The notes under the pieces are model-generated. The model ran no database searches, had not been told where the DNA came from, and saw only the letters and a program-made list of their open reading frames with translations. The position numbers and the translations under genes were made by a program. From positions 19,416,372 to 19,480,371 of the forward strand of contig JAJEKV010000017.1 in NCBI GenBank assembly GCA_021234155.1: a DNA stretch of 64,000 nucleotides, in the 5' to 3' direction. Position 1 is the stretch's first letter. Every line of letters begins with the position of its first letter. This stretch comes from Isoetes taiwanensis. Taxonomy: Eukaryota; Streptophyta; Lycopodiopsida; Isoetales; Isoetaceae. Of this stretch, positions 33,382 to 53,400 are shown piece by piece.

Positions 33382-33445
33382 AACGTCGAACACGATTGCA
33401 AATTAAACGGGAGTGTTGCAGCACTCCCGTTTCAAAGATTCCCTT
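33382..33445 (+). repeat. Left terminal inverted repeat of unit III
   Basis: Contains ACACGATTGCAAATTAAACG, a hairpin with 11-bp arms (AAACGGGAGTG / CACTCCCGTTT, 33405-33432) and CAAAGATTCCCTT. It matches the reverse complement of 48265-48340 in the same order, with differences in the middle. Confidence 0.6.
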
Positions 33446-33856
33446 GAAAAAAACAGCCTGATCTAGAAAATGACACTTTTTTCCTTCTAATTGGGAATTC
33501 CAATAGGCTTAATTTTTTTTTACCTCATTTTTGGCCCCCTAGTGTAAAATAACTTGGAATTTGCCAAAACCAACACTTGAAAAGGGAAGAATTTAGACAT
33601 GCTTTTGTATTCTCAAAAAGTACTATCTTGAAAACACCAGAATGTAGTGAATAAAATAATTATTATATAATGAAGAGTGTTTCAATGATACAATTTGTAA
33701 CATCACATGGTGGTCGTAAGATTAATGTTTTTGGAAAAGACAGACTAAAGGTCCAAATCAAAGTCTTCATCATGCTTTTTGCTTGTTTCTGCTGTGCCAG
33801 ATTCTGTAGTCTGATCCTTTTCTTGTGCCTTACCCTTGTCTACATCTGCAGTGTCT

Positions 33857-34789
33857 TCAGGAATGGTAGCTAGTGCCAGTAGCTTCATCCTCTAAAGAGC
33901 TAGTGAATGGAGGTTGTATCTCAGAAGAGGTCAGCTTGGCAAAATCGGATGAGGATCTGGCACCTAACTCTTGGTGCTCATCTGGTAGGGTAGGCAAGGC
34001 TGCCAGTCTCATCTTGATGAATTGCACAGCTTCTTTATCAATGTCCACTGCTACACAATTCCGGCCCTTCCTAAGTGCACAAGCTATTGTTGTACCAGAG
34101 CCAGAGAAGGCATCAAGCACCCAATCTCCTGGACGTGAAAACATGTCTAGGAGATGGTTGATTAGCTTTTGAGGCTTCTGGTAGTGATTAACAATTCTAC
34201 CTTGTGCACTAGGGTCCTGTAGCTTTTGAAGCACAGCTGGAAATTCCAACACATTAGAAAAATTCTGGCATGCTGCTGTGTTAAAATGCTCCATGGTGCG
34301 TTTTCCATCGAAACTCCAGTAAGCAACATGGAGGTATTCAACCTTACTCAGCAATCTCGGCCCGCCGCCATGGTAGTTTATATTTGTTTTGTACCTGTAG
34401 AAATGAGTAGTGTCACTAACGAAAACAGAACAAGAAACAAACAAAGAGAACAAGTGAAAGGCAATTATATTCTGGAATAGAAAACTAAAACAAAAAGAAG
34501 AAACAAGCCCAACGTATTCCAGAATAAAGTACTCACCAAACCAAATTCTCATAACCAAATTTTGCACCGGGATCCGGGTGAGTTTTAAACGTGGACTCCA
34601 CAAGGCCAGATTGCATGCTCGAGTGAAACACGACAAGACGCCAGTGCTTGGCCGTTGTGACTTGTTTGATGCCGTCGACGAAAGCGTTAAACTCTGAAAA
34701 TTTAAAAGGCTGGTCGTCGTAACGGCTGTCCTTTAGTTTAAAGCCATAAGGAAGGTCCGCAATCACCAAAGCAGGAAATCTTGTGGCTT
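33857..34789 (-). CDS. DNA methyltransferase (N4-cytosine/N6-adenine type), two exons
   Basis: Exons about 34789-34537 and 34394-33857 with an intron 34536-34395 (GTGAGT ... CTACAG) that joins in frame across a Trp codon. The first exon carries FPALVIADLPYGF, the DPPY-type catalytic motif IV with Leu in the second position. The second carries PGDWVLDAFSGSGTTIACAL (motif I, AdoMet binding) and GRNCVAVDIDKEAVQFIKMR (motif II). The order IV then I marks a beta-class amino-methyltransferase of the N6_N4_Mtase family, common in bacteria and phages. A Ser/Glu-rich tail ends TGTSYHS. The base methylated cannot be told from sequence. Upstream exon limits are uncertain (an in-frame TAA lies at about 34801), and it may be the C-terminal half of the ParB-like gene. 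The intron holds two half-copies of the unit III palindrome. Confidence 0.75.
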
Positions 34790-35253
34790 TCTTGTCCCAA
34801 CCAAATTAGTGCCCCCCCGTGAATGATGGAAAACAAATTATTTTGGTCAAATAAATTAAACTTTTCATAATCGAAGGCTCCACATCTAGAGTTCTCTCCT
34901 CTCCGCCGGTGTGTTCTTCTTCGTGCGCCCCGACAAGGTGCATAAAACCTTCCGCGGGTCCTTATTTTTCTTCTTGTTCCGCAAACAAAGGGGAGATTGA
35001 GGCAGAGACAAGTAAAGTATGACGTGTTTAGTCAGTGCACCCATCCTTCAAAATTTGCGCGATCGGAAGCATTTTTCGCCGGATGTAGCTATGGGATAAA
35101 GCTCCTTGCACCTCTCCCACGTCTCCACGTTGAGTTGCTCCATCGACATGTGCGGCGGTGATAACATTTTTTTGGCTAGAAAGAAAAACACAACCTTTTT
35201 AGCAGTTGGAAAGAGAAAACGCGAAGTAAACTATCTTCCTGCCACCTAAAGTT
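34790..35253 (-). other. Intron or linker between ParB-like and methyltransferase exons
   Basis: No clear gene. A possible exon near 35150-35050 reads MSMEQLNVETWERCKELYPI followed by ATSGEKC, which could bridge the two domains, but its splice sites are not convincing. Confidence 0.3.
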
Positions 35254-35486
35254 ATTCTAGAATACAAGCGCTGTAATCAATATTTTTCTTGTTGCAGAAG
35301 TGTATTCCAGAATACACTTTAACTGCAAAGAAGAAGCGAAAGTGTATTCTGGAATACACTTCTACAACGCAACAAGTTAGAGTGTGTATTCCAGAATACG
35401 TTTTCGCTGACTCAAAGGAGTAAAAGTGTATTCTGGAATACACTTTTACACTACAAGAAGAGAGAACGTGTATTCTGGAATACACT
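35254..35486. repeat. Six unit III palindromes in an intron
   Basis: GTGTATTCCAGAATACAC (35300-35317) and GTGTATTCTGGAATACAC (35342-35359, 35426-35443, 35468-35485) are exact 18-mers. Degenerate copies are at about 35254 (TTATTCTAGAATACA) and 35384 (GTGTATTCCAGAATACG). They follow the donor GTAAGC of the exon ending at 35588. Central CTGG/CCAG versus CCGG elsewhere fits C-to-T change at a CpG. Confidence 0.85.
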
Positions 35487-35587
35487 CTCGTTCCATCGAG
35501 GGTGCGAAAGCATTTCCAGGACCACTAAATTGCTGTTATCTGGACAGAATTCTACAAGTGAAAAGGCAGCAATGATTGTATGCTTAC

Positions 35588-37880
35588 TTGTGCAACTCCT
35601 TCGACATTTCTTCGAGTGTGAACTCCTTGTCCACCACCTTTTGCAGAAGCTGTTCTAGTAATTCTGTGTCAGTGAACCCCTGCATCTCCCTCCAGACAGT
35701 GATGGTCATTTCCTTCTTTGGAACGTCGCTGCCTTTCTTCTTCTCCGACACCTTTCCCTTACTTTTTAGCTCACCGCGCTCAAACATATTAAATATTTCG
35801 TTCTGAAGCTCCCAGATCTGCAAACAAATTAAAAAACTTAGAAGCTAGTTGCACACCAAATCTTATTCTGGAATACGCTTGTAACCTTACCCGGCCATCC
35901 CTGAACGCTAGCTGAAACCAATTGTCATGACCAATGAGTGATGCCCGTTTGTTCGCCTCGTCGTATTTAAGGCAACACTCAATGGCACAAGCTTCTTTAA
36001 GTTCAAGGGAGTACTGTGGCTTTTTGAGATCCTCTCCATATTTTTCCTTGAAGATAACATATTCTCTGTGCATGAATCTGATTTTGTCGACAAAGCTCAT
36101 TTTTAACTTGTACTCGTTGTCAGCGTTGTGAGTGTTGGCAACGATTTTAGCTTCCTCGTCGGTCAAACCACAGTAGACAGCACAGAGAACAGACAAGTAC
36201 CTAGGATTCTTTTTTTCCTTGTATAGTTGCCTCCTTGCCTTAAAGCTGTGGTTCCCACCCAAAACATAATGCGTATATGTGTCCGCATTTTCTCTATCGT
36301 ACTCTGCAGGAGTTGTGCACTGCTCTCTATCAACAAGAACAACAATTGGAGCTACATGTGCATTGGGATTGCTCCGGATTCTGTCCTTGAGGTTCCTTAG
36401 GTGGTCTGCATATATCTTTCGAACCTGCAGTGGTCGTTCTCCAGCTTCATTTTTTGGAGGAAGCTTCATAGTTGTGACCGGCAAATAAATGACACCTTGC
36501 ACAAATTTGTGCAGGTTTATTTCTTCCATTTTCTCTGCTGTTTTATCAACTTTTTTTTCTTTGATGGCAACGCCAGGTGCTTTGCCTTTCCCCTTCTTCT
36601 TCTTGTGTGCATCCTCAGGAGCATCTTCTGTTTCAATGATAGCCGTTTTTCTTTTCTTAGGCTCTTTAGCAGCTATGGTTTGCCTCTCTTCTTTCTTTGG
36701 TGGTGGAGGTGGTCGCTCCCAACCTGATGTACTCACGGATGGGCTCATGAGACCGTGATGGACTCCCCGATGGATTCCCCGGATCTTCCTCTTCCCCTTG
36801 TTCGACTTTGTAGGGGAAGTCCCTCGTTATTAGCGAGCGTAATTAATGATGGCAGAGAGCGACCTCTTGTTCACGTAGTGAGAAACATACTTATAAAGAG
36901 GATGTGGATTTACCTTCACAAGTCTAAGGTAGGATTCATCAACATGAATAAAGCCTTGAGATGTCTGAAAAGACAATCTCCCTCCCTTACCGGTCTGCCC
37001 AGCTACCTCACTCACGGACAGGATGGTGCCCATGCAGACAAATTCCCTGTCATCGTACCTTTTGGTTCCAGGGCTCCGACAGACATGCAGAAAAGTCAGG
37101 GTGCTGTACTTTCCAGAAGTACCCCTTGTAAAAAACCATTGAGTTTGGAAGTTTTCGTAAATAGCGGGCGCATCCGACTCCTCAACCCTTCTCTGTGGGT
37201 GCGGTTTCTGTACGATTTTAAGAGGCTTCTTCTGTTGTTTCTTGCTGCCGTCATGTCTGCAGGTAAATTGTGTAAAACACGACCTTGTTAGAAAAAAAGC
37301 AAAGGGCAAAAGAACTATTCCAGAATACAAAATGGCTTACAAAAAGGGAAAAAAGAGGGCAAAAAGAGGACAAAAATGTCAAAAAAGCACTGCAATCTTG
37401 GCAAAAAAAGTGGTCTAAACAAGCTAAAAAATGCAGCAAGAATGCCTAAATTAACTAAAAAACGGAAGGAAAAGTAACTTCTAAAACCTAAAAACACGAA
37501 AGTGTATTCCGGAATACACTTTCGCCGAAAGTGGAGGGCTAAGTGTATTCGAATACACTTTAAGCTTTGGAGGTGGCGAAAGTGTATTCCGAATACACTT
37601 TCGCCGAAAGTGGAGGCGAAGTGTATTCGAATACACTTCGCTCGGGGAAAGCGGAGGCTTAAAAGTGTATTCCGGAATACACTTTTGCCTCCACTTAGTG
37701 TAGAGTTGAATACACTGCGCCATATCCTGGGCTAAAGTGTATTCCGAATACACTTCGCCCACCGGGCTAGTAGAGTATTCGAATACACTTTAAGCCGAAA
37801 GTGGAGGCGAAAGTGTATTCCGGAATAAGAAACAGACATGCAAATGATTGTACGTTGTACTTTCTCACTGACCTGTCCAT
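35588..37880 (-). CDS. ParB-like domain protein, four exons; probable N-terminal half of a ParB-methyltransferase gene
   Basis: A tiny first exon ATGGACAG (37880-37873, donor GTCAGT) joins in frame to exon 2 (37256-36891), giving MDRHDGSKKQQKKP and then a domain of unknown type (QTQWFFTRGTSGKYSTLTFL). Exon 3 (about 36796-35891) has a basic, nuclear-signal-like linker (AAKEPKKRKTAI, AHKKKKGKGKAP), then the ParB-like part: YLPVTTMKLPPKNEAGERPL, VAPIVVLVDREQCTT, the box YVLGGNHSFKARRQL and GLTDEEAKIVANTHNADNE. Exon 4 (35817-35588) follows a 73-bp intron 35890-35818. GxH(R/S) boxes and the N-E-A tail are typical of ParB/Srx-fold proteins. In bacteria and phages this domain is often fused ahead of an N6_N4_Mtase, as the next exons suggest here. 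Spliceosomal introns exclude bacterial contamination. Palindromes occupy introns 1, 3 and 4. Confidence 0.65.
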
Positions 37881-38160
37881 GGTTTCTCTATGTGAATCGG
37901 AATACAGTCTCTGAATATAATAATCGAGCAGCTCGGCGCTGCTTAACTTGAGCTCGTGAGATCGAATACGTGAAAGGCGGCAAATTTCCTTTTAAAGGTA
38001 TCATTTTCGTCTTGCTCTTTTTCTATGTGATCCGGAATACGTTCAGCTTTACTATCCTACTCTTGTGTATTCCGAATAGCTTTTATTTTGACTTTCACTT
38101 GATTAGTCTTTCGAACTTCTACTTGTACTTCGCGGGCGTATTCGAATAAGAAAAGCTCGC
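37502..38160. repeat. Array of unit III palindromes in intron 1 and the divergent promoter region
   Basis: Exact GTGTATTCCGGAATACAC at 37502-37519 and 37665-37682. Shortened forms GTGTATTCCGAATACAC (37582, 37737) and GTGTATTCGAATACAC (37543, 37621) lack central bases. Degenerate forms occur at 37699, 37772, 37813, 37891, 38029, 38065 and 38140, and a single imperfect copy at 37316. From 37.5 to 37.8 kb the spacing is about 40 bp and the spacer CGCCGAAAGTGGAGGCGAAA also recurs. The last copies lie between the two divergent start codons. Confidence 0.85.
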
Positions 38161-38206
38161 ATTACGAAAGTTTCTCAAATCTCTTTACTATTTTGCGGTT
38201 GTCAAG

Positions 38207-38440
38207 ATGACGAACCGCCGTGAACAAGCTTCCACCACCTTTTGTTGTCTCAAGCTCAAATGCGGTTCCGAGGACACGCTTTGGGAACAACGTCATTTCT
38301 AGTGAAGACCAGGCATTCTCCGGCTCCTACCTCTGCTTCATCGTTGTTGCTTCTAAGACACACCGAGTCCAAAGCACAAAACAGACTTCCACCACCCTTC
38401 CAACCGTCACCAAGTCCGTGAGACAAAGCACAATCGGCAT
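38207..38440 (+). pseudogene. Unit III transposase, 5' part (split by retrotransposon)
   Basis: An ATG at 38207 and a long open frame from 38220 encode a Ser/Thr-rich N-terminus with repeated STTLPT-like phrases (for example KQTSTTLPTVTKSVRQST). The frame is cut at 38440 by the LTR of a Ty3-type element. The ATG at 38207 is one base out of frame with the longer ORF, so a small indel or an upstream start is likely. The continuation starts at 44978. Confidence 0.45.
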
Positions 38441-39039
38441 TGTTTGGGGTCCGGGCACCGGATCGCTCGAGGGGCAGATCTCCGTGAGATCCTTGAAGTC
38501 CGGCAGGCGAATCCTGAGACACTCTTGTCACGCGGGATTTTTGCTAACAGAGGAAAGAACAAGAAAAACTCAGATAAAACAGCAATTGCAATACACAATG
38601 AAACACACAAGACACTTGTGGAGAACACGGCAATCCATTGATCAAAACAAGTGTACAATGAAGGCTCAAAAGAGCGCTATAACAAAGCGACAAAGATGTC
38701 TCGCTCTCAGAGTGACACAAAAGAAACACTGAACCCCCCGGCGAGCAAAATGCTACAATATATAGGAACACGGGAGTGGCCTACGGGCCTGAATCTGATC
38801 CTCATCATGACAACGCGTGCTCCACTACTTTGGGCACTCGAACAGAATTGAGGCCGTCCGGCCGTGCTAACAGACAAGTAGTGGCCCGCACAGGTCCTAC
38901 CTTTGGGTCTTCTCGCTTGGAGGAGCTTTGACCACGGAAGGGCCTCTTTGTGGATCCCTTCTTGGACACCGCGGGGTGGGGCCTGCGCCCTCATGCAGCA
39001 AGTATAGACCTGTGTGTCTGCCAGGCACAGGGGCTAACC
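38441..39039 (-). repeat. 3' LTR of the Ty3-type element
   Basis: On the minus strand it ends CCCGGACCCCAAACA. It aligns along its length with 44367-44972, with many small indels at G/C-rich spots. The outer edge abuts GGCAT. Confidence 0.75.
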
Positions 39040-39289
39040 TCCCCCTACCAAACTACACTTATTGGCTAGAAAAGGGGCATGAATTCGGGGTGGGAATCCT
39101 CGCTCATCTTTCTCGATCTTGAATATAGAGATGAGGGAGGCTCACCATCAGATTCATTGTGATTCGCCCGAGGTGATCAACTCAGCCGAGTGGTCGCGGT
39201 ACGTGGGGCTTCCGCATCCTCCGAAAGTGGAGTGCCCCCGCAGTAAAGGGCTATAGCAAACATGATAGGGGTTTTCCCAATTTTGTTTT

Positions 39290-40640
39290 AGTTTAGGACT
39301 TTTCGGTGAAAAATCCCCAAATAATTGTAGCATCTGGGCAATTTTGTACATAATAGAAAAGTGTTTCTCATAAATTTGTACAAGTGGTATCTTGTTGTAA
39401 ATTTTGTTCTTGAGCTAAGGATGTCGCAGTTAGGGGTTTGAAATTTCTTGAGTCGAAATCCATTGACTAATGTAGGAAATGGAGTGCCATCCAATTCTTG
39501 TAATTGTAAAACCTGGGGATGTGGTATCTCGGAAATTTTGTATGGTCCCAAACCTATCCGAGCTTGAGTTTGCCGGATGTTGTTGATATCTCGAGTCGAA
39601 AGAAGAACTAAGTCGCCAATTTGAAAAGTTTTGTTTTGATGTGTTTGTCATGCCATTGTTTTTGTAGTTGTTTGCCTTGTTGAAGTCTAAGAAAAGCATC
39701 TCTTCAAGTTCATCCGCTTGTTCCAGCTTGATAAACTCGTTCTTGCAAAGCTGCTGATGGATTATGTTACATTGCTAACTGAAATTTGAGTGAGGGTAAA
39801 ATGAACTCAAAAGGCATAAGAGCCTCTTGGCCATACACAAGTCGGAAAAGGTGTTTGACCGGTTGCTACTTTGTATGTTGTATTGTAAGCCCATAAAACC
39901 GTAGGTAACTTATCTTGCCAATCTTTTCTTGTAGGATCACAAATCTTCTTCGTGAATGTGGATAAGCACCTTGTTTGTGCTTTCAGCCGCCATTACCACG
40001 AGGGATAGTAAGGCGTGCTTTTTCTCGTGATGAATGTGCGAGATAGTTAGTGAGTTCAGCAATAGTGTGATTGATGAAATGAACTCCACGATCACTAACT
40101 AATTCTAAGGGACATCCAAATCGCGTGATGATGTTCTTTGTAGAGAACCTTAGCTGTACTAGCAGCCGCGTTGTTGTCGTAGAGCACACTTCAGCCCATT
40201 GGTTGCATAGTCCGTGAAGACTAGAATGTAGCGTGCCCTAGTGTTGATTGCGGTGTGGGTCCATGGGACCAACAAAATCCATACCCCATTTGGCAAAGGG
40301 GAGAGGCGTGGCTATTGGCGTGAGCGGCAGAGGCGTCACGGGGCGTGGGTCTACTAAGCCTCGACAAACATCACACGCGGCGCGGTGTATTTGTGAGCAT
40401 CTTTGAAAAGCGTGGCCAGTAATACCCAAAGAAGGAGGAGTTTTGCCGTGGTTGTTCCGCTGAAATGACCAACGCCAAGTCCTTCGTGGGCTTGTTTGAC
40501 TAGATCGGGGACTTCGCGGAGGAAGAACACATCGCGAGGAGCACATTGTCTTTGCCACATTTATAGAGATGGCCAGCAACCATCGATAATCTCGCACTTC
40601 GCTAAGGAATTGTTGTTTATGCGTAAGTTGTCTTTCTCGA
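39290..40640 (-). pseudogene. Integrase region of the Ty3-type element
   Basis: Read leftward. A zinc-binding part (VKQAHEGLGVGHFSGTTTAK, then TLFKDAHKYTA) leads to the core (PFAKWGMDFVGPMDP and ITRFGCPLELVSDRGVHFIN). It ends with a GPY/F-type C-terminal module (GPYKISEIPHPQVLQLQELD). These are the HHCC, catalytic and C-terminal parts of a retroviral-type integrase that inserts the cDNA. Many frameshifts and lost bases show that it is dead. Confidence 0.7.
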
Positions 40641-41060
40641 GAGAGCGCGGGTCACTTGACGGGAGTGCTCCCGTGAGGAGAAAGCGCTGATAGTCGTGGG
40701 TACCAATGAGGCGCGATGAGGACTGTTGACCAGAACAGCTTGAGCATCCGGAAGGGCATCGAACTCCTTCCGAGGGATCATCCGCGGTGTATGCGTGAAA
40801 GATAGCGGGGACCGTGAGTAGCGTCCTTGTGAATAATTTCAAAAGGGGCAAACTCTTGCAATATCAATATCCATCGAGCAATTCGCCCGTGGGGTTTGGC
40901 TTTATTGATTAAATATAGAAGAGCTTGATGATCCACATAAAAGTTTAATTTTTCCATTATGTTTGAGGGCAATAACAATAGGACTTACCCATTCTGAATG
41001 TTTGACCTCAGAGATAAGTCCAAAGTCATTCAAAAGCTTATCAATTTCGGCTTTAACCTT
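40641..41060 (-). pseudogene. Reverse transcriptase/RNase H junction with deletion
   Basis: The minus strand near 41050-40950 reads LLNDFGLISEVKHSEWVSPI followed by VIALKHNGKI, the N-terminal finger region of a Ty3-type reverse transcriptase. It passes directly into NFYVDHQALLYLINKAKPHG, the late RNase H connection region. The YxDD catalytic core between these points is absent. The element therefore cannot make its own reverse transcriptase. Confidence 0.65.
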
Positions 41061-41775
41061 TTCACGGTAGTTTGGGTTTGCAGTCTTGATTGATCGCTAG
41101 ATGGGTCTAGCATCCGGGTTTGGTGGGAATCGAGAGTTGTCCCAATTCTTTCTTGATACCTCTGAGGTCTTTGTAGCTCCAAGCAAAGATGTGCTTGAAA
41201 CGCTTGAATAGCGCAATGGCTTGCTCCCCGAAGGTGGGCGGGAGGTTGGCGTGCCAATCGGATTGGTTGATTTGTTCCAATATCAATTATGTCTACCGCA
41301 GGAGTTTGAATGTGTGGAATGACTTGATCATCCCGAACAGTGTGGGCTGGCTCACGAGTACGGCAGGATGTTCATGTTGACCAATTTTTGAAAAATAGTG
41401 GCGTGCCACTAGGAGTTGGTGTGGTGTCTTCTTGAACAGGAGGAGGAGCCGGGGGTACCGCCTCCTCATGTGGAACCAATGTGACGCTGTGACAAGGTGT
41501 CAAATAGGGGTCAACCAGCTATGCCTTTATCAATATCCATGTCTTCCCATGGTTGATTGTATTCGGTAAGCCGTGAGTGGCAAACCCTTGGCTTGTAACC
41601 GATAGGTGTTGCAAACTTGTTCGTGAGTCACCGTCCGATTCAGCGTGATCTACAAAAATGATCTGGCCCGTGGGTCAGATCCATCGTGGGCGTTGAGCTT
41701 GCCATCCGTGATAACAAGTTGATCCGCGGGCCCAAGAGTGAATGCTTTTAGCTTGTCTCAAAAAGGGTCGTCCTA
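41061..41775 (-). other. Decayed pol segment between protease and reverse transcriptase
   Basis: Minus-strand frames are short and interrupted. By position it should encode the link between protease and reverse transcriptase, but I recognise no motif. Confidence 0.35.
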
Positions 41776-42310
41776 CTAACATTTCATAATCTCGGGATCT
41801 TCTCTCGCCTCCAAACACCGAATTCCATGGTAAATTGTAGATCTCCAATATTGATTGGTATTGGTTGTGTAACTCCTTGTGGTCAGTGATATGGCCATTC
41901 GCAAGCTTGATGTCATAAGGGGCAGATGGAGCTCCCCTTTATGCCCAATTGTCGTCCCGAGATTATCCGTAATAAGATTGACCGCTACCGCCACCATCGA
42001 CCAACATGGTGAACCTTTTTGGCCCACGCGCGGTGCATGCACCGCGGGTGTTGATGTGGCTTAATCGCATTAACGTAATACAGGTTTTGTAAAATGTGCT
42101 CGTAGTGGCCGGACATAGTTGTAGGATAGTCGTGAAGGCTGAGAGGAATTTTGATTTTAGCAAGTTCTTGTTGAAGTTCGGGAGGGATTGCGGTAGTTGT
42201 GGTGGATCCGTGGGTTGTTGTTGCTCAAGAATAGATGTCGCTACATTGTTGAGGAGGTCGACTTCAGCAAAGCAATGTTGAGTGGTGGTGTTGCGTGATG
42301 TCGCGGGCAT
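41776..42310 (-). pseudogene. Aspartic protease region of the Ty3-type element
   Basis: The minus strand carries GPKRFTMLVDGGGSG followed in the next frame by NLITDNLGTTIGHKGELHLP. LVDGG followed by S-x-NLI is the active-site region of a pepsin-like retrotransposon protease (usual form VDGGSxxNLI). A frameshift occurs within it. Confidence 0.6.
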
Positions 42311-42359
42311 TCGTGGTCGTGGCTCCCGATCGCGGTGGTAGCATTGACAGACTTTAGTG

Positions 42360-44335
42360 CCTTACCTTCTCGCCGACGCTCGATGAGTTGAAGCAGACTT
42401 TTGCGAAGTTTAGGTTGAACATGAGGAAGTAGTTGATCCGCATTGGGTGCAAAATGAACAGATTTGGTGGATGGCTCACCGGTACGAATCGGCTGCAAAA
42501 ACTTGGTGCACGGGGGTGCTTATGGCGTGGGGAATGAGGGAGAACCTCAATCCAGGTTGGAGGATTCAAGGCTGGTGTTGATTGCATGGTAAATTTCTTC
42601 TTGGAGTTGATCATCCAATTGTTTTTGAGTTGTTTGTTGTTGGCGTGGTTGTTGTTGTGGTGGCCGTGGTGGCCGTTTGATAATCGGGCGTGGGCCTTGC
42701 CTTCCCTTGGCTTCCCATACTTGAAAAGGTGTAAGACGACCGCCGTGGGTTTGATTGGTGCCGTGAATTTGTATTTGAACTTGAGGAAGTTGAGGACAAC
42801 CGCAGACCGATGACCCCATTGGTCACAAATTGAAACATTGGGACTTGCTTGGATCAAAAAGTGGAACGAGGAGGTCCACGCTGTGGTTGCCGCTTGTTGC
42901 CGGGTTGTTGTTGTTGTCGGGTGGCGGCTCGTGTCCGTGGTTGAGTTTGCGTGGGTACCTTCGCGACTTGGTGAACAAGACGATGTCGATACGGATTTGG
43001 TCGTGGATTTGTACATTCTTCGCTGGTGTGGTTCGCATGTTGCGCGGCGTTTTGCAATGGATCATGCTATCCACGAGTTACACTCATTCGCCCGATGTCC
43101 CGAAAATCGCAAATAGTACACCAAATGTTATTTTTGGGGAACCGTGGAGGCGTCCGAGGTGCGTGGGTGTAGCCGAGGGAAATGGGAGTATCGTGGTTTG
43201 ATCACCGCGTGAGGAAACATGAACAGAAAGGATTGACTAATTCAATGGCTTCTTGTAATGTCTTGGGGCGCAAATACTGATCATAAATCGGATGTGAGAG
43301 GGTAAGCCTTGAAGAAACCACACTAGAATTTGGCTTTGGGTTGGAAATTCCTTCAACTTGTTGACTAAGATCCGCAATCGGCCTCAAGAAAGTCTGAAGC
43401 TGATTCTCCCCGGGTTCCGCTTTTGAGTGTGTTGAGGTCGTTCAGCAGCTTGTTGATCATCCGCAAGGGTGCCGTAATGGGAAAGAAAAGAGGTCTTCAT
43501 GTGTATCCAATCTTGTTTCCAAAGTGGCTTTGTTTGCCATCAGCCATTCGTGGGGTGCTCCACGCAGGTCGTCGAAAAGATGTGGAATTTTAGTTTTGGA
43601 TCGGAGTGACCATTGAGATCCTGCAAGTGACTCAAATTCATCCATGTGAGCCCGAAAGCACTCTGGTCTATGTGTTTACCTTTATCATTTCCAAAGAGTG
43701 GATATTGGAGTTTTAAAGCATGTGTAGGAGTCTCATGCATGAATGGGTGTTTGCATTTGTGGAAAAGAAAAGACAAGAGGGTGTTGGTTCGATAGGTACC
43801 GTGCAAACCGGCATAGGTTGTGTGAGATTAGTAAAAGAGGTAATCGAAGCGGTTGTAGTGGGGAACAAAGGTTGTGACAGCATGAACAAATGCGGCGGGG
43901 GGGAAAGATTAAAGGAAACGAGACGGTAGGGGAATTGACAAAGGTGGAACATCAAAACCGGTTCCTAAAGAAAGATTACCAATAGAGAAAACATTTTGCG
44001 ATGTTCCGCAGAAAATTGGCGGTGGTTCCGCTTGATCTTGAGTTGGGGATTCCTAGGGTGGAGTAAAATTCAAGGGGCACGGTCGCTTCCTCTCGCATGA
44101 TGTGGCTTAACTTGGAACGGAACAATGTTTTAACCTTCCACGGGGAGGTCGGTCTGAAAGTTGTCGTGGTGTAGGTGGAACAGATTAGCGCCTCGCACAC
44201 GCGAGAAGAGACAATCAACCGAAAGTGTATGTGGACATATTCGCGAGGCGCCGCTACAAAGCTCATGGCGACGCGCCTTGACTCCATCCGTGTTGAATAT
44301 CGCCGGAGTAAAGAAGGGATTGAACATGGTATCAA
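42360..44335 (-). pseudogene. gag region of the Ty3-type element
   Basis: It starts near the primer site and runs through LKLQYPLFGNDKGKHIDQSA, FDDLRGAPHEWLMANKATLE and LRPKTLQEAIELVNPF, a typical plant Ty3 gag order. A zinc-knuckle remnant (CFNLCDQWGHRS, combining two frames) and Gln/Pro-rich stretches follow near 42.6-42.85 kb. The frame is broken many times. Confidence 0.6.
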
Positions 44336-44341
44336 TACGCT

Positions 44342-44366
44342 TTATGAGCCCTTGAACAGCGCCAGG
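44342..44366 (-). other. Primer binding site of the Ty3-type element
   Basis: Directly after the 5' LTR, the minus strand reads CCTGGCGCTGTTCAAGGGCT. TGGCGCxGTT is the usual start of tRNA-complementary sites in plant Ty3-type elements. It confirms the minus orientation. Confidence 0.6.
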
Positions 44367-44972
44367 TGTTTGGGGTCCGCGCGGATCGCCGAGGGACGGA
44401 TCTCCGTGAGATCCTTGAAGTCCGGCAGGGCTTAATCCCCGAGACACTCTTGTCACGCAGCGGGATTTTTGCTAACAGAGGAAAGAACAAGAAAACTCGT
44501 GATAAAACAGAATTGCAATACACAATGAAACACACAAGACACTTGTGGAGAACACGGCAATCCATTGATCAAAAACAAGTGTACAATGAAGGCTCAAAGA
44601 GCTATATTAACAGGCGACCAAAGATGTCCGCCTCAGAGTGACACAAAAGAACACTCACGAACCTCCCAAGGAGCAAAATGCTACAATATATAGGAACACG
44701 GAGTGGCCTACGGGCCTGAATCTGATCCTCATCATGACAACGCGTGCTCCACTACTTGGGCACTCGAACAGGAATCTGAGCTGTCCGCGGCCGTGCTAAC
44801 AGACAAGTAGTGGCCCGCCGTGGGTCCTACCTTTGGGTCTTCTGCTTCTTGGAGGAGCTTTGACCCGCCGTGGGCCTTGTGGATCCCTCTTCTTGGACAC
44901 CGTGGGCGGTGGGGCCCTCGCCCTCATGCGGCAAGTATAGACTGTGTGGTGCCGGGCAGCGCGGGGCTAATG
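44367..44972 (-). repeat. 5' LTR of the Ty3-type element
   Basis: Begins (minus strand, at 44972) CATTAGCCCCGCGC, where TG would be expected at the very end, and finishes GACCCCAAACA next to the primer site. The outer edge is followed by the GGCAT duplication. Confidence 0.75.
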
Positions 44973-44977
44973 GGCAT

Positions 44978-47900
44978 CTCCTTCCAAAGAATCACCACCA
45001 GTTCGGAGCAGGTTGCCACCACCCTTTGTTCCATCCCCGGGACCTACAGAAGCTCCACAACAAAGGGTGCTCAAGAACAAGCTACCCCCCCCTTTTGTAG
45101 TTTCGCCCCCTTCGTGCAAACATACAAGGAACACAGAAAACACGTAAGACCGCGGAGATTCGCACAATTTCTCTCACCAGGACTTCACTACAAATGAGGA
45201 CGACGCCCAAAGATGCACTCCTCTTCACACAACAACGGTTGTGACACATGGATTTGCAGAAATTCAGTCCGCTCTAAAGGAGATGTTTGCAAGAACTCCT
45301 TTTCAAGATGGTACAAGAACGGTGATGCCACAACCTCTTATGGGCCATCACCATCCTTTAAACTGCACCCCGCCTATTCCGGGAACAACTTCACGTGGTC
45401 ATTTTTCCTCTACAAGCACACCAAAAGATGAGGAAGTCACCCCCAGAGTAGAAGTTTCATCAGAAGATGAAGACACCAACGAGGAACAAAGAGATTACAT
45501 GTTCTCAAGCCAATCTTCAAAGAAATTCAAGGTGGATTTTGGTTTGAGGGCGTGCTCTCAAGAAGAAGAAGAAATCTTATGGATGAACACAAAATGAGGA
45601 GACTTTTGAGAACTAAATGCTGCTCATTGGGTTGCATCAACAGATTTAATATGGCTAAATTACGAGCAGTTAGAGACAACTACAGTTCCATGACATTGGC
45701 GCGCACTGAATGCCTACTTAGCTTATCATGTAAGACCAGACCGCAACACCTTCTTGCACTACATTAACCGTCAAGAAGTTTGCCAGAAATGCTTTATGGT
45801 TGTCCACCGTTTAGGGTCCACCAGAATGTCTAGAATACACAAAAGACTGGACAAAAATCCAAAGAATCGATGATCATTGTGGACCAAGAAGAGTTGTAAC
45901 CATGCATGCCCCTTCTGCTGTGTCATGGATGGAGAAATATTTTAGAGAAACATGTGAGAAGCTACCTAACAGCAACATGTATCATTTAACTGATAACATC
46001 ACCAAAAAAGATGTTTTTAATGAGTACAAAGAGACTTGCACTCAGCTTCAGCACATCTCTTACTCACACTTCACCAGACTGTGGAAAAGTGAATTCGGCC
46101 TTGTGAAAATTCCTAGAAAACATAGAATGTCTGTTTGCTCGAGGTGTGCAGAATTAAAGAGTCAACGAGAAACTGCAAAGACAGAGGTCGAAAGAAGTAA
46201 GCTCATGTTCTCCAATCTCTCACTTGTTTCAGAGAAAATGTTTTGACCTGATTTCTTCTACAGATATTGTGCAACAGAACCTTGCCAGACATCGTGAACA
46301 ACAAGCAGCAGAGAGAAGAAAGCTTGCCAAGCATAGAAAAAAAGCTCTTGAACGTCCACTGCAATACATGTCTATTGTGATTGATGGAATGGACCAAAAA
46401 AAAACAACTCTACCACATTTCTTGAACATTCCTAAGGATGTGCCAGAGGAATGTTTTGTTAAGGTCCACCTTGTAGGAGCTATGGTCTTCAAAGGAAGTC
46501 TAAAGTGCAAAGTATTTTTGACGTATCCAAACTTGCATGGTGACCGAACCTCACAATTACAATTCTTAACAAGGTCCCGGCGAAAGCAAGAGCAATTACC
46601 ACCGATTGCTTTATCGCAACTTGACAATACTACAAGGGAGAACAAGAATCAAACACTCTTTGCGTACTGTGCCATGTTAGTGGAGCTAGGGATCTTTAGA
46701 AAAGTGAAGCTTGGTTTCTTACTTGTAGGCCACACTCATGATCAGATTGACCAAATGTTCAGCAGATTTTCTGTGCGCCTTAGAAGGAAGAAGGCTTTCT
46801 GTCTTCCTTCTTTAGTTCGAATTATTGAAGATTCTTACACTCCTACTCCGATTGGTCGACCTTCTTAAAGAGACTGCTGATTTTAGAGAGTTTGTTTTCT
46901 CTCAACGTTCAAACAGAGAACAAGCTGTGAACAAGTTGAATGATCTCACCTTTCAGCATCATATCAAGTTCTACTTGAAGGATGGCCAAAGCTTCTTACA
47001 GGGGAAGAAGTATACCACAACTAAGGACTGGAGTCCACCAGAGGGATTACGCTTCCTTAAATACATTCCAGACACTTCCTTCATAGAGCGTGCTGAACAA
47101 CTTCCTCTCAAAAATCCTAAGGAGTCCAAGCAGAAGAAAAGTACCCCAGAGTCATCCTTAAAAGCCATTGAAAATGGAATTTCCTCAGGCTTTAAGTACT
47201 TCTTAGAAGAAGATCGGATGTGGTGGAGTAATTTCTTTCTCGAACAGAAAATTGTTGTACAACATATAGCTCTAAGACAGTTGCAAGAACCATTTCAATG
47301 GCCTAACACCTTCCATCAACCCCAGCACCAAGCAGGTCCAAGCAGTGCTACATTTGCACCTGCAGTAGAAGACGAGGAGGACCGAGTCATGTACCTCGGA
47401 CCAAGACGCAGGAATGAGCCTCAAGGTAATATCACAGAAATTACCAAAGGTATGCTAATTGCTCTTCCGACTGAGGAGGATGACAAAGGTCGACCGTTCT
47501 GGATAGCAAAAGTGCTTGACACAGTCAAGGAGGAAGGCTTAGTCACTAAACTCAAGATTCATTGGCTTGCAACACGCCGTAAAATGCTTTTGAAGGTAGA
47601 TATGAGTTAGAAATGAGAAGCCAAGGAAAAGGGAGAAAGTCCAAGAAGGTGGGTTGTAGGGACGAGCTAAACCTTAATGACGTGACTATTTTGTGCTATG
47701 ATTTTAAATTGAAATCTGACAATCGCGTCACGCCGTAAGACTATCAATTTGCTTAAAAAAGCTTGTAATTACGAAGAAGATGATGAAGAAGGTGGTGACA
47801 ATGCTTCACCGTCTTTGTTGATAGTGATGAGGAAGATAACTCAAGCACTTCCTCGGATGACGTTGAAAGAAGTGAAGGTGATGACGATGGCATAAATGAA

Positions 47901-48017
47901 TATGAAGACGCCCCGGATCCCTCTCTCATCACTCCTCACACTTTTGCACATAAGCGAGTCTTAGAAAAAGATCAGAATTTTGCATGTGAATATGAAGATT
48001 CTATCTTCAAATTTTGA
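44978..48017 (+). pseudogene. Unit III transposase, main part (RNase H-like fold, GHTH motif)
   Basis: It continues the frame cut at 38440 (SFQRITTSSEQVATTLCSIP). A spacer with acidic/Ser patches leads to a Cys block (LLRTKCCSLGCINRFNMAKL), VCQKCFMVVHRLGSTRMSRI (CxxC and HTH-like) and LTDNITKKDVFNEYKETC. The core has LQYMSIVIDGMDQKKTTLPH, QLDNTTRENKNQTLFAY and LLVGHTHDQIDQMFSRFSVR, three Asp-containing motifs spaced as in RNase H-fold transposases (I believe DUF7869). Then come GFKYFLEEDRMWWSNFF and an SH3- or chromo-like part (ITEITKGMLIALPTEEDDKG). A TAG at 47608 looks premature, since a shifted frame runs on to an acidic tail (DSDEEDNSSSTSSDDVE) and a TGA at 48015. Frameshifts near 45.2, 45.6, 45.8, 46.2 and 46.86 kb make it inactive. 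The unit II copy is a distant relative. Confidence 0.65.
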
Positions 48018-48264
48018 GAATACTACATTTTGAGCCATGAGACTTACTTCAATTTTTGTTAAATATTTTATCCTCCTGAAATTAGAGTTTCTCTCTTTAA
48101 ACATACTTGAAGAACATTCTATTTGCTAAGAAAAGTGACACTTTAAAAAGTCAATTCTTTTCGTTGCAAAAAAAAAAAAATTAGTCATTTGGGGGGGGTC
48201 AAAATAGAATTTCATGCATCTTTTTTTTTTTTAACCTCGTTTTACCCCCTTTTTGTAAAAAAAA

Positions 48265-48340
48265 AAGGGAATCTTTGAGGAATATTCCTTTTGCTCTCGT
48301 TTCAATGATTTGCTCCCGTTTAATACGCAATCTTGTTGTC
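48265..48340 (-). repeat. Right terminal inverted repeat of unit III
   Basis: Contains AAGGGAATCTTTGA and TCCCGTTTAATACGCAATCT, matching the left end in reverse. A 33-base stretch of it (48305-48337) occurs again exactly at 52350-52382. Confidence 0.65.
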
Positions 48341-49876
48341 GTTACAAACGTCGTTACAAACGTCATTCAACGACGTTTTTGTCGTCGTTTAACGGCGTCA
48401 CGACGTCGTTAAACGGCGACTGTGATTTAAATCGAAAACAGGCGGCAATCCCGCCGCTTATTTTCGAGCAAGCAAAGCTTATGGAGGAGCATTTTTTGAG
48501 GCGATTTTCGGCGCAGATCTACTTTGGGGTCTATTCTAAGTGTAAGACAAGCTTCATAAGGTATGTGCACGGATCAACCAACTCGTTTTTTGAATCTAAA
48601 CTTGTTTTTGGGTAGATTTAGGGTTTTTTGTATTTGTTGTTTGTTCTTCCTTCAACCTTCATTCTTCTTCTTCCATTCTTGCATCCTTCTTCCATACATA
48701 TTCTTCCATTCCCTTTGTCATCTTCTTCTTCGATTCTTCCTCCTCTTATACTACTTCTTCCTCCTGTTATTCAAATTCTTACTCTTAATCCTCCTCTTGC
48801 GCTTCATCTTCTTCGTATTCTTCCTCCCCATTTTGGGTTCCTCCTCTTCTTCTTAGCCTTTTTTCTTCTTGAACTTCTTCCATTCTTCTTCTAATTTTTT
48901 TTCCCATCTAAGAAGACGCGTCTTTAAAAGGCGAGACCCTTCTTCTTTCCAAAAATTTTTCCTTATTAGTTGTTTTATACTATTTCTTTCTAATCATTGA
49001 ATTTTTGTTTTGCATGTACACTCCTAGCAAAATGTGTTGTTCTTGCAAAACAAGTTGGCACCTCTTTCGTGTAAGGATTTTTTTTTTTCAATACGCTATT
49101 ATTAATAAAATACTAATGCTTTATTTAGGTTAAATTGTTATCCAAGAAGGGGACGTCATTGAAACCACCCCTCCCCCATTGATTTTCCATATATTTTTTT
49201 TCCTTTAAGTTGTTTAATTATACTAATATTCTACTAATCATTGAATTTATTGTTTTGCATGTACACTCCTAGCAAATGCGTTTTTTGTGCAAAACAACTT
49301 TGCCACCTTGTACCAGGTAAGCATTTAATTTTCAATATGCTTAATGTATTGATTAATGTATTTAGCTTAATTTATTGATTAATGTATTTAGCTAAAAAAA
49401 TTGGGGATTCATTTATTTTTGTATTTTTTTAATATATTTAAGCGACATCATTTAATGACGTTAAAATCTTATATTTCTTTATTGGTTAAATTCATTTTAT
49501 AGGCTTTAAATTAAATGTATTAACTTCATTCATAATAAATGTATTATTATTTTTTTCAATTTATAAAAAAAAAAATTAAAAAAAAAATTAATACACGTAA
49601 GCAACGTCGTTAAACGACATTGCTTACGTGGCTGCCACGTCAGCAACCCGCTCGTCGACGCCACGCTGGCCGCCCGGCCACGTGGCAGCCACGTGTACGT
49701 GGCGTCGTTGAACGATGTCACGTCATCGCTTTAAGACGACGCCGTTGCGACCGTATAGCGACGCGTCCGCGTCGTAAAAACGACGTGCAGACGTCGTTAT
49801 AGGCGTCGTTCATCGACGTTCAAACGACGTCTGGACGTCGTAATAGACGTCGTAACAGGGCAATTTTTTTGTAGTG
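48341..49876. mobile_element. Right part of a CACTA element
   Basis: The right edge, read on the minus strand, is CACTACAAAAAAATTGCCCT, ending at 49876 inside a LINE. The inner flank (49595-49856) is packed with ACGTCGT/ACGACGTC motifs in both orientations, a typical CACTA subterminal array, and a second cluster lies at 48335-48420. Between them are a C/T-rich tract (48640-48900) and small exon-like pieces. The matching left end is not identified; it may have been displaced by unit III. Confidence 0.55.
48481..49320 (+). pseudogene. Small Cys-containing exon-like pieces inside the CACTA part
   Basis: An ATG at 48481 reads MEEHFLRRFSAQIYFGVYSK followed by CKTSFIR and a donor GTATGT. Two later pieces (about 49013-49070 and 49255-49317) start MYTPSK and contain CCSCKTSWHLFR and CVFCAKQLCHLVP, each ending at GTAAG donors. 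The last two are a duplication with the surrounding 240 bp. They could be exons of a CxxC-type protein, but no full gene can be assembled. Confidence 0.3.
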
Positions 49877-50461
49877 CTTCCACCAGGCTACTTTCACCAC
49901 TGCTCCTTCTGCAGTCCCTCCCCAAACAGAGTTACGGACAATTCTGTCCAATTCCTGAACCTTGCATTCTGGAGCTAACATAACAGACGTTGTGTATACG
50001 TGGGTGCTACAGAGCACTGACTTAGCTACAGTAATCCTGCCTGCCATCGACAACTTACTACCCTTCCACCAATTCAGGTGCTTCTGTAGTCCCTGCAAAA
50101 TCTCATCCCAGACACAGCCCATAGAGATATCACCCTCAAAAGGAATGCCTAGAAGTCTGGTACATGCATTCACTGGGAGTACCTTCCAAGGGAAGAGAAA
50201 CAAACAAGGTGGAGGCGGCGTCTCCAAAGCCCACAGAGCCGAACACTTTCCCCAATTAAGAAGACAACCAGAAGCCAAGGAAAATGTATCCAGCAAACCC
50301 TTAACATTACGCAAATTGCTTTCTTCTGCTGCCACAAAGAGAAAAGTGTCATCTGCAAACTGATTGCAAATCTGCTGACTGCTGTTCTGCATCCGAAGAC
50401 CCTCTACCACTCCCTCATCTACTGCAGTCAAGAGCAATTGTGATAATGCCTCCGCCACCAT
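49877..50461 (-). pseudogene. LINE reverse transcriptase fragment
   Basis: An open frame of about 195 codons with ICNQFADDTFLFVAAEESNL (catalytic FADD box), GCLLNWGKCSALWAL and LNWWKGSKLSMAGRITVAKS, the thumb/connection part of a plant LINE reverse transcriptase. It is cut at its 3' side by the CACTA terminus at 49876 and lacks everything upstream of the FADD region, so it is 5'-truncated. It is related to the LINE at 19018-20423, where the portion kept here is deleted. Confidence 0.75.
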
Positions 50462-50469
50462 GGTAATAG

Positions 50470-53400
50470 TGTTGCAGAAGGTATTTATGAAGGTATAGTG
50501 TCAGGTATTATATAGTCTTATGCAATGACATTGCTGATGGTGTGATGGTCGTGGTTGCTCATTACAACTTTCTCAAAGATATGATCCGAAGCAATAGACA
50601 GTATTGCCTTGATCTAGCAAGATGCTTTTTGTCCTACTTTTCTAATTCAAAATCGTTTTGTCTCCATTGGAGCATTCTTTCAGGAATCTTTTCAGCCATA
50701 TTTTTGTTCTAGTTTATGTTTTGAAAATTTTAGCATAATGTTCTATTTGTATTCAACAATAGTGACGTGGTTTGGGTTAAATATATTCTAATATTCTTGT
50801 GTCATATTCGTATTTAACATCGGTGTTATATTGGTGTTAATAGTGTATATTTCTGACAATTCAAATTTTATATGTAATGTTTTTTTTCTGTTTATCTATT
50901 TTGTCTTTTTAGGTGCTGCAGAATCTATGGTGTTGCTTACAAATGTTAGTGGTTTATCTTAATGAAGAGAATGCTGCTTAGATACATTTCAACATATTTG
51001 ATCTTCACATTTAATATAATAGCATTTGCTTATGATTCAAGTCTTATGCAGAAGCATTGAGGTGTAGAGAGAATTCTCTTTTACATTTTTGGACGACGAC
51101 AAAGTTCATCGATTTATTAAAAATAACAAGTTCTGTTATATTCGATTGTTATATTACTGTCATGATACACTACTTATAACATTCATATCCCTACTTTGTT
51201 TCATGTTTATAGAAAAATATGTGGTTCTCTTCCTAATATTTTTGCCACAAATGTCAAACTTCTCATAGTTTGCAGTACTGGAGATGTTTTCAATGACCAT
51301 CTTCTGTGATATTTGCCCAATACTTTCAAACAGGCAAATTCTGGCACAGTTATTTTCAGCAAACACTTGGGTTCTTCATCGAAATTTTTCCTCCTGTGCT
51401 ACATTATCAACATATCCATCCTCTGTTCTCTAAGCAGCCATATTTGCACACATTCCTCACGAATCTTCTATTTGGGTGCTGGCGGAGTCCTTCAAGAATT
51501 CAGTACCAAACCTTATTAACTCAAAAGAGGCACACCAATTATTATTATGTCATTCTGGATTCGCAACATTACTTTCTGTTGTTTGTGCCCAACGGACAAG
51601 CAACTCCACTTTTATCCCCGATGCAGATCCTTTTACTTGCTCAAAACAAGAAACAACAAATTGATTGTGCCTTGGCACAGTCCTGTCCACCAATAATTTG
51701 AGGTCTGCGAACAGACAAAGCTTTTGGGCTGATCTTTTTACATTGAAACAAAGTTGCAGACTCTGTATCCAGCTGCATACGACTAGAAGTGCCCGGATCT
51801 TTAGAAGGAGGACCCTTGATCACAGAGAATGGACATGAATCCAATATTGGCATCAATCTTCCTCGGTCTCCATCCGCAATTTTTGTTTGAAACAGCTGCA
51901 TCCACCATTTGTCTTTGAAGCAGATGCACATACTGTATACCTGTGATGGCCAAAAGCACAATATCGAACAATTCTAGCTGCAAGATGCAGCGGTCTATCA
52001 TGATTCCCCAAATTCACTCCAACGGATCTTCCTATCTCACAAGCTTCTATGCTCTGCCTTGGAGCTTTTTGTGCACAGACGGTGCCATGGGCACTTAGCC
52101 CTTTTTGTTCAACCGGAGACCAGGGCTGTTCTTGCCCTCTTATTGCAACGATTCCTCACTCATTCTTCAGGGAACATCAGGCAACGCTCTCCCCTTTGTG
52201 GCTCGAACAACCTCCAGTCATGCAGACATCTCTTTTCGCAAGCATTTGAAGCGCAAATAAATCTTTCAGGCACATATACCGCTCCGTGCTTCATCGACCT
52301 TCAAAAAATTGCGCAAATCAAAGTCCTCGAGTCACAGTCCTTCGTTTTGATGATTTGCTCCCGTTTAATACGCAATCTTGTTTTTCTTGCCTTTGCAGAG
52401 TTTAAACAGGGCCAAATCCCTAGATATAGTGGCGCCCATTTTGGTAGCTCGTTGGAGCAATGCGGTTGCAAATATCTGAGCAGTGGAGCTTGCCTTGCCT
52501 GGCCACCGATTGAATACATGGAGCTCATGTTTTCGGCCGGATTGGAATGCCAATACGTATTAGAACAAGATATTTTTTCTCATGTTTTTGCATTATGTTC
52601 GCAGATTTGAGAAAGTTTAGTTAGGGAAACATCTCCTGCTCTGACAAAATGAAGGTTTGCTCTAATGAAGCTCAAGCTGCAACGGAGCTTCTGTCGGCCA
52701 TGGCTCTTCTCCGAGATACACTATAATCATCTAGTTTTGCGAGCTCCAGGTATTTTGAAGTCCCATAAATTGGCAGACAGGGGATATGAAATGCAGGGGA
52801 TATGAAAAACAGAGTATATATTTATATGCTCCTGCTTCTGCTGAATCTGATCAGAAACAACACAACTGCTTTAAACAATGGCGCCCACAGGAAGAATAAA
52901 AATTTCTTTGGCTGTAGAATTTGGGGAAAGGGATCCATCTTCACCAACGATTAATTGATGAATTCGGTCAGTACTCAGATCTGAAACAAACACAAACCTA
53001 CCAGATGGATCGGTGATAATCTAGTGAAGATGGGTCGTTTTTGCCTGTCCAAATTGGGGCCAGATCCTACTAGAGATAGGAAGAGATCCGTCAGAAGATC
53101 CTCCTGCAAGAAAAATTGGCAAGCCATCTCTGATAATGCAGTTGTGTCAGCGTCAAATCTAACGTCAACGTCACGAAATATTCGAGGTTATTAATGGCCC
53201 CAATAAATGCCCTATAATCAACGAGTGCACACAATACACGTGCCATGTTTTAAGAATTTTTAAGGAACAAAATAAGGGAGAACAGAAATTGGACACTGCA
53301 TTACGTAGGAAGGATAGTGTGTGTTTGATAATTATAATGTGCGTTTATATGTAGTTTGCATTATGAAAGCTATGAGAATTGTCAAGAATAAGTTTGTGTA

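Follow-up and report, generated by a model that had tools for sequence, protein, structure and literature searches.

Several transposable elements (TEs) are known to encode proteins that act on DNA modification. VANC proteins of the Arabidopsis VANDAL transposons bind a motif that recurs in the introns and intergenic stretches of their elements, and methylation is lost at these places as a result (PMC5735166). Some retrotransposons of dinoflagellates and charophytes have captured C5-methyltransferases, and Dam-like N6-adenine methylases occur in DIRS retrotransposons (both PMC5890265). Fungal DNA transposons carry TET/JBP dioxygenases, with escape from silencing as their supposed role (PMC12730594). 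The stretch analysed here (the window) is 64,000 nucleotides of the Isoetes taiwanensis genome (contig JAJEKV010000017.1), and contains one copy of a cut-and-paste DNA transposon belonging to a repeated family. It carries, beside its transposase, a spliced gene encoding a ParB-like region and an amino-methyltransferase (MTase), and arrays of a palindrome in its non-coding parts. DNA-modification enzymes as TE cargo are already known; new here is the palindrome, and this combination was not met in the literature searched.

Element family and cargo gene

The window element is bounded by terminal inverted repeats (TIRs) that are 88% complementary and by a 4-bp target site duplication (TSD), GTCG, which is weak taken alone because the flanks are GTCG-rich. 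A search of 1,658,258,908 bases (1110 contigs) supplied further copies: 20 were picked via the MTase, with 9.9 kb read for each, and 2 more (L112 and L113) via long transposase frames. Alignments of the other copies mostly start on the left at 33388-33389 and mostly stop on the right at 48337-48340, and a 4-bp TSD was found in 11 of the 12 copies with both ends (the window counted). L025 has both ends without a 4-bp TSD, and L015 has a TSD only after its end is shifted by one base. Full-length copies measure 7,472-8,817 bp (n=11). A preliminary description of this DNA had proposed an inverted-repeat-bounded element and had looked to other full copies with the same ends; both are borne out, the latter by 11 copies besides the window.

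The gene content of the copies is largely uniform. The last MTase exon is present in all 20 MTase-picked copies, the ParB exon, whole or partial, in 19, and transposase sequence in 15 (divergent in 14, rearranged in L028); in the remaining 5 the transposase core was unmatched within the 9.9 kb read. Both transposase-picked copies have the ParB-MTase gene, L112 its 5′ part only. No case of the gene outside the element was met among the 22 copies read, with the proviso of the five just mentioned, and here too the preliminary description stands.

The transposase, on the plus strand and divergent from the ParB-MTase gene, matches PF25273 (DUF7869) at 2.5e-39. Genome searches scored 150 places out of 9834 candidates for the transposase and 150 out of 1442 for PF01555, the MTase family. 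Of the 150 transposase places listed, 39 or more have an MTase place (from a list of 150 likewise) no farther than 12.4 kb away, against about 0.3 such pairs expected by chance (our own arithmetic), so the association of the two goes beyond chance. Rows were chosen by eye with orientation as no criterion, and the count is a lower bound; 39 of 39 pairs, the window among them, are head-to-head, the divergent arrangement that had been proposed from the window. These observations support the ParB-like and MTase gene as integral cargo of an amplified plant DNA transposon.

Three diverged subfamilies are apparent by eye among the copies, and the gene is kept in all three. Identities of the MTase and transposase halves are 76.8 vs 91.2% between L016 and L023, and 86.7 vs 82.1% between L011 and L014, diverging both ways as if halves had been swapped; many pairs were valued for one half only (position filter).

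The ratio of nonsynonymous to synonymous differences per site (pN/pS) is 0.065 in E5, the last MTase exon with catalytic residues (12 copies), 0.080 in the ParB core (6 copies), 0.085 in E3 (12 copies), 0.183 in E4 (14 copies) and 0.240 in the N-terminal part (9 copies), against 0.101-0.203 in three transposase parts (4-7 copies), all values coming from open-frame copies only and therefore biased downwards, with synonymous sites near saturation and pairs non-independent. The ParB-MTase values look like the pattern of a working gene, under constraint at least that of the transposase. The gene could also be a passenger, captured once and carried without benefit to the element. Many copies are broken, the window's included, as might then be expected, but high synonymous divergence with few amino-acid changes (subject to the same bias), and retention of the gene in the three by-eye subfamilies and in both transposase-picked copies, make this very unlikely.

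Palindrome arrays and their possible readers

The arrays, unreported in the preliminary description, are built from a palindrome with consensus AAAGTGTATTCCGGAATACACTTT and a 12-bp core, TATTCYRGAATA. The core occurs 13 times in the window, always within the element, against 0.03 expected. Eleven full-length elements (88.7 kb) contain 128 cores (Markov expectation 0.0), with none in 20.2 kb of their flanks; L112 and L113 have 5 and 10. None of the 128 falls in an aligned exon: 59 are upstream of exon A, and introns E2-E3, E3-E4 and E4-E5 hold 9, 42 and 18. All 128 are thus in the element's own non-coding parts, the VANC-type arrangement of motif arrays. An 18-mer, GTGTATTCYRGAATACAC, was found at 27 of 30 own-genome loci and at 0 of 83 other loci; it occurs 4,367 times genome-wide, as a whole-genome count whose sites are not all assigned to the element, against 0 for the reversed pattern.

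The palindromes are retained between copies whose methylase genes are ~70% different at synonymous sites, and it is their sequence that is conserved, not symmetry alone. Single sites are kept as well, in intron E2-E3 of 9 of 11 elements and in intron E4-E5 of all 11. Spacings under 200 bp are 41-42 bp in 43 of 73 cases, near four helical turns, and the 17-19 bp spacers of the 11 full-length copies are themselves imperfect palindromes (GGCTT..AAGCC, TGCTT..AAGCA). The central dinucleotide of the palindrome is CG at 130, CA/TG at 124 and TA at 2 of 256 strand-sites, in line with decay of 5-methylcytosine; since whole elements are CpG-poor (observed/expected 0.54-0.69), nothing special is claimed for CpG at this position. 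Between 37500 and 37830 in the window, palindromes minus one or two central bases (GTATTCCGAATAC, GTATTCGAATAC) stand beside full ones, by decay or assembly error.

Because the arrays are confined to the non-coding parts of one element, adjoining a gene with a methylase and a ParB-like region, they suggest self-recognition and self-methylation. The reading preferred here, to which we give slightly less than an even chance, is that the family carries a self-recognising DNA-modification protein, VANC-like in logic. The N-terminal half of the protein (ParB-like region plus the helical stretch that follows) would bind AAAGTGTATTCCGGAATACACTTT in the introns and the divergent promoter, and the fused beta-class MTase would then add an amino-methyl mark to the element's own DNA. 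The likeliest benefit would be that promoter and gene stay transcribable against host silencing, or that element DNA stays recognisable to its transposase. The arrays lend circumstantial support to the earlier suggestion that the element might mark its own copies. A more specific version is doubtful: in it, a ParB-type module fused to the MTase would load on parS-like arrays and write N6-methyladenine (6mA) or N4-methylcytosine (4mC) on every copy, giving the element an epigenetic address of its own at thousands of places in one plant genome. That the palindrome is itself the direct 6mA target is kept as a rival reading.

As a second possibility, the arrays might be docking sites for the transposase, while the MTase, acting independently of them, would methylate the promoter or the ends and so set the time of transposition, much as host Dam times some bacterial transposons. 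Many transposases bind internal repeats, and the 59 cores upstream of exon A lie towards the shared divergent promoter. However, the cores of the 11 elements span 0.12-0.62 of element length, leaving the regions near the ends and the distal transposase half free of them, and 69 of the 128 are in methylase-gene introns E2-E3, E3-E4 and E4-E5, so that we consider docking unlikely.

As a third possibility, the arrays might act as RNA, with intron hairpins feeding small-RNA or RNA-processing pathways and the MTase unrelated to them. In four elements, the predicted folds of the array stretches are far more stable than those of dinucleotide shuffles (z -25.0, -14.6, -23.9, -11.7). The two arms of a spacer also match each other better than cross-paired arms do (3.89 vs 3.26 of 7, over 36 spacers; reached in 1 of 2000 shuffles). 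A tandem palindrome array yields such z-scores anyway, though, and the retention of single sites and the conservation of sequence beyond symmetry, both described above, also argue against an RNA role, which appears quite unlikely.

The predicted protein, its gene and neighbouring features

The C-terminal half is, by its profile matches, a beta-class amino-MTase (N6_N4_Mtase), as the preliminary description had it. In the window it matches PF01555 at 8.3e-18 (65.6 bits, against a curated cut-off of 26.7), and in a second scan at 4.3e-18 (66.5 bits, against 26.7); it also matches the phage family phrog_67 (8.4e-27) and the CcrM structure 6pbd (2.3e-11). A tblastn search returned 460 phage records, of which the 15 best listed cover the methylase part only. 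Motif IV (D[L/I]PYGF, in E4) lies ahead of motif I (FSGSGTT, in E5), which is the beta-class order, and each was found in 20 of 22 copies. As a guess, the mark would more likely be N6-adenine than N4-cytosine, because most of the closest enzymes with solved structures methylate adenine.

The ParB identity of the N-terminal half is held with moderate confidence, and its origin from the ParB/Srx group seems fairly probable, clearly better than even but well short of certain. The bacterial ParB model TIGR03764 matches the window's spliced protein at E 1e-3 and the exon alone at 2.4e-4 (20.8 bits, far short of the curated cut-off, 143.75), and matches 3 of 5 alignment members, the best at 2e-4; DUF6551 matches 5 of 14, the best at 0.0026. 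The order PIVVLVD, YVLGGNHS, VLCAVYCGL, EEAKIVANTHNADN resembles ParB boxes I/II. The ParB-like box of the preliminary description is moderately supported by these matches, while Pfam ParBc, HHalign and AlphaFold/Foldseek gave nothing for it.

Alternatively, the "ParB" half might be a lineage-specific domain without the ParB/Srx fold, the protein being an amino-MTase with its own target-recognition region, which would be compatible with self-marking. The null results set out in the next paragraph would fit such a domain. So would the sequence GGNHS: ParB/Srx proteins usually have an arginine where it stands, and their CTP (cytidine triphosphate)-binding motif is GERR-type, but GGNHS is at the GERR-type position in 16 of 22 copies (motif readable), as in most metagenome homologues covering that place, and the GERR-type motif was not found there. 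The TIGR03764 and DUF6551 matches and the putative box I/II order speak for ParB instead, and we regard a lineage-specific domain as possible but rather doubtful.

Several points weigh against the preferred reading of a self-recognising modification protein. For the ParB half, Pfam ParBc had no match in three profile scans. HHalign against Spo0J-type ParBs (80 bacterial sequences, 39 kept below 85% identity; the query alignment shallow, at an effective number of sequences, Neff, of 1.9) gave a probability of 1.2% and P 0.046 (reversed control, P 0.17), the 34 aligned columns falling within E3. AlphaFold models from 3 and 13 sequences had mean predicted local distance difference test (pLDDT) scores of 38.7 and 43.2, and Foldseek on the 13-sequence model returned 53 matches at E<=10, the best at 0.58 and none at E<=0.001. 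For the MTase half, motif IV is non-canonical, reading D[L/I]PY wherever it was located (20 of 22 copies); the usual form is (D/N/S)PP(Y/F/W), e.g., DPPY, and methylase activity is therefore not assured. As to the palindrome, nothing ties it to the ParB-MTase protein over the transposase or a host factor, and its 41-42 bp spacing may be mere tandem duplication. The open-copy basis of the pN/pS values and the partial assignment of the genome-wide 18-mers, both given above, belong here as well.

Relatives of the ParB half were sought in several collections. Genome contigs gave 29 pattern matches and 0 relatives, and plasmids no match at E<=1. The 6 phage records, at E 3, are tail-protein genes throughout and were taken as chance; viral contigs gave 1 locus, matching MTase residues 525-589 only, and a PDB search with a profile of the ParB part only found 0. 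In metagenome collections there are 18 homologous proteins at E<=0.01, two seeds counted. Among these (P0001-P0002, P0017-P0032), P0002 stands for 60 member sequences, and several resemble plant-transposon exon pieces. Within the element, the transposase, the ParB-MTase gene and a nested long terminal repeat (LTR) element were all that was recognised; a ParA-like gene was not among them, no ParA model having been run on every frame, and the segregation role once suggested for the element is thus not supported.

Coordinates are collected in Table 1. The spliced minus-strand gene of the preliminary description is indeed spliced, but its exons 1 and 2 are one exon (exon A), its exon 4 lacked the 5′ part, and a short first exon had been missed. 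A start matching this first exon was found in 9 of 20 copies, eight with exactly ATGGACAG and one with ATGGAGAG. E4 begins near 34976, not 34789, and includes the N-terminal part of the methylase (FDQNN..IVHGDCTKL). An intron between 37256-36891 and 36796-35891 was rejected: other aligned copies read through it or lack it, and the window is frame-broken there. L024 and L023 have exon A, E3, E4 and E5 open, the first exon not being located in either, and the C-terminal end of L023 comes early. The window copy itself is decayed, with frame breaks in exon A near 36830-36890, in E5 near 33868, and also in E4 and the transposase, and with an altered E4 splice acceptor.

Table 1. Features of the element and its surroundings (positions in the window)
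Feature	Position	Strand	Remarks
Window element	33389-48337		inverted repeats and 4-bp target duplication GTCG
TSD GTCG, left copy	33385..33388	.	
Left TIR, AACACGATTGCAAATTAAACGGGAG	33389..33413	+	
Last exon E5: motif I (DAFSGSGTT) and C-terminus	33745..34394	-	end placed by homology to other copies
Intron E4-E5, two palindrome cores (34468, 34515)	34395..34536	-	
Exon E4: N-terminal methylase part, motif IV DLPYGF	34537..34976	-	extent via homology
Intron E3-E4, six palindrome cores (35253-35482)	34977..35587	-	five at 42 bp spacing
Exon E3, 76 aa and two bases	35588..35817	-	
Intron E2-E3, one palindrome core (35864)	35818..35890	-	
Exon A: conserved N-terminal region (NFQTQW..TSQG), basic linker, ParB-like region (YVLGGNHSFKARRQL, THNADNEYK)	35891..37256	-	
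Intron 1, palindrome arrays	37257..37872	-	exact cores 37316, 37505, 37668, 37816, and shortened variants
First coding exon, ATGGACAG, then GT donor	37873..37880	-	inferred
Transposase 5′ coding part (MTNR..VNKLPPPFV)	38207..38440	+	up to nested LTR element
Nested LTR retrotransposon	38441..44970	-	foreign to original element; limits are aligned LTRs; Gypsy type by eye
Remaining transposase: Cys-rich part, DUF7869 core (46158-46868), C-terminal part	44971..47610	+	frame breaks
Right TIR	48313..48337	-	
TSD GTCG, right copy	48338..48341	.	

In the transposase, the candidate residues for the conserved acidic triad of an RNase H-like fold are D156 and D198, invariant in 32 sequences, and D76, D79 and E161, nearly so. 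Most of its named relatives come from the liverwort Riccia sorocarpa; the others belong to one fern (Adiantum nelumboides), lancelets and a coral. The 4-bp length of the TSD is reminiscent of the Sola superfamily. A frame break ahead of the DUF7869 core (46200-46270 in the window) recurs in L010, L012, L013, L017 and L022; a programmed frameshift was considered, and the break fits a short GT-AG intron, but L112 and L113 have an uninterrupted frame at this place.

The nested LTR retrotransposon appears to interrupt the transposase gene within its 5′ coding part, and its LTRs are identical at 549 of 624 positions (88%). By eye, it has gag/pol-like frames with integrase motifs. Just outside the element, a minus-strand frame at 49820-50500 looks, again by eye, like a non-LTR reverse transcriptase.

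Comparison with known systems

Transposons with modification enzymes are rare natural experiments in the control of host chromatin by selfish elements. In the openly licensed literature searched (subscription papers and Repbase lay outside the search), there was no report of a transposon with a ParB-like region and an amino-MTase, or of DUF7869. Three features not previously reported together there would be combined in this land-plant family: a bacterial-type amino-MTase, a ParB-like region and a single element palindrome present in thousands of copies. The mark 4mC has reportedly been seen in bdelloid rotifers. With these elements, whether directed 6mA or 4mC exists in land plants, and what would write it, becomes directly testable at defined sites. 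If the protein does bind the palindrome, a compact sequence-specific enzyme for epigenome editing would be on offer.

Among bacterial and phage systems, the methylases of CcrM/MboII/RsrI type and phrog_67 share the catalytic domain and the order of motif IV before motif I, but the Isoetes gene differs from these in being eukaryotic and spliced, in its D[L/I]PY motif IV and in the ParB-like half upstream. ParB-parS partition systems are a second comparison: the likeness is similarity to one ParB model (TIGR03764) and the clustering of palindromes on the same element, while ParA was not recognised here, the GERR-type motif is absent and the palindromes are putative sites.

Among TEs, the fungal TET/JBP transposons are alike in having a DNA-modification enzyme as the cargo of a DNA transposon; their enzymes oxidise methylcytosine, and MTase cargo is not mentioned in the available part of that source (PMC12730594). 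The Dam-like enzymes of DIRS elements are likewise amino-MTases encoded by a eukaryotic TE, but the class of element is another, and a ParB-like half is not mentioned for DIRS in the part of the source at hand (PMC5890265). The captured C5-methyltransferases, as described in the same part, are also TE-encoded DNA methyltransferases in many copies; those are C5 enzymes of retrotransposons (PMC5890265), whereas the Isoetes enzyme is an amino-MTase of bacterial type, is encoded by a cut-and-paste element and comes together with a ParB-like region and palindrome arrays.

VANC shares a TE-encoded protein and a short motif repeated, often in tandem, in non-coding DNA of its own elements, both intronic and intergenic (PMC5735166). 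There, however, the motif is YAGTATTAY and the outcome is methylation loss; here the protein has an amino-MTase, the repeated motif is palindromic and long, and the element has a DUF7869-type transposase (PMC5735166 for VANC).

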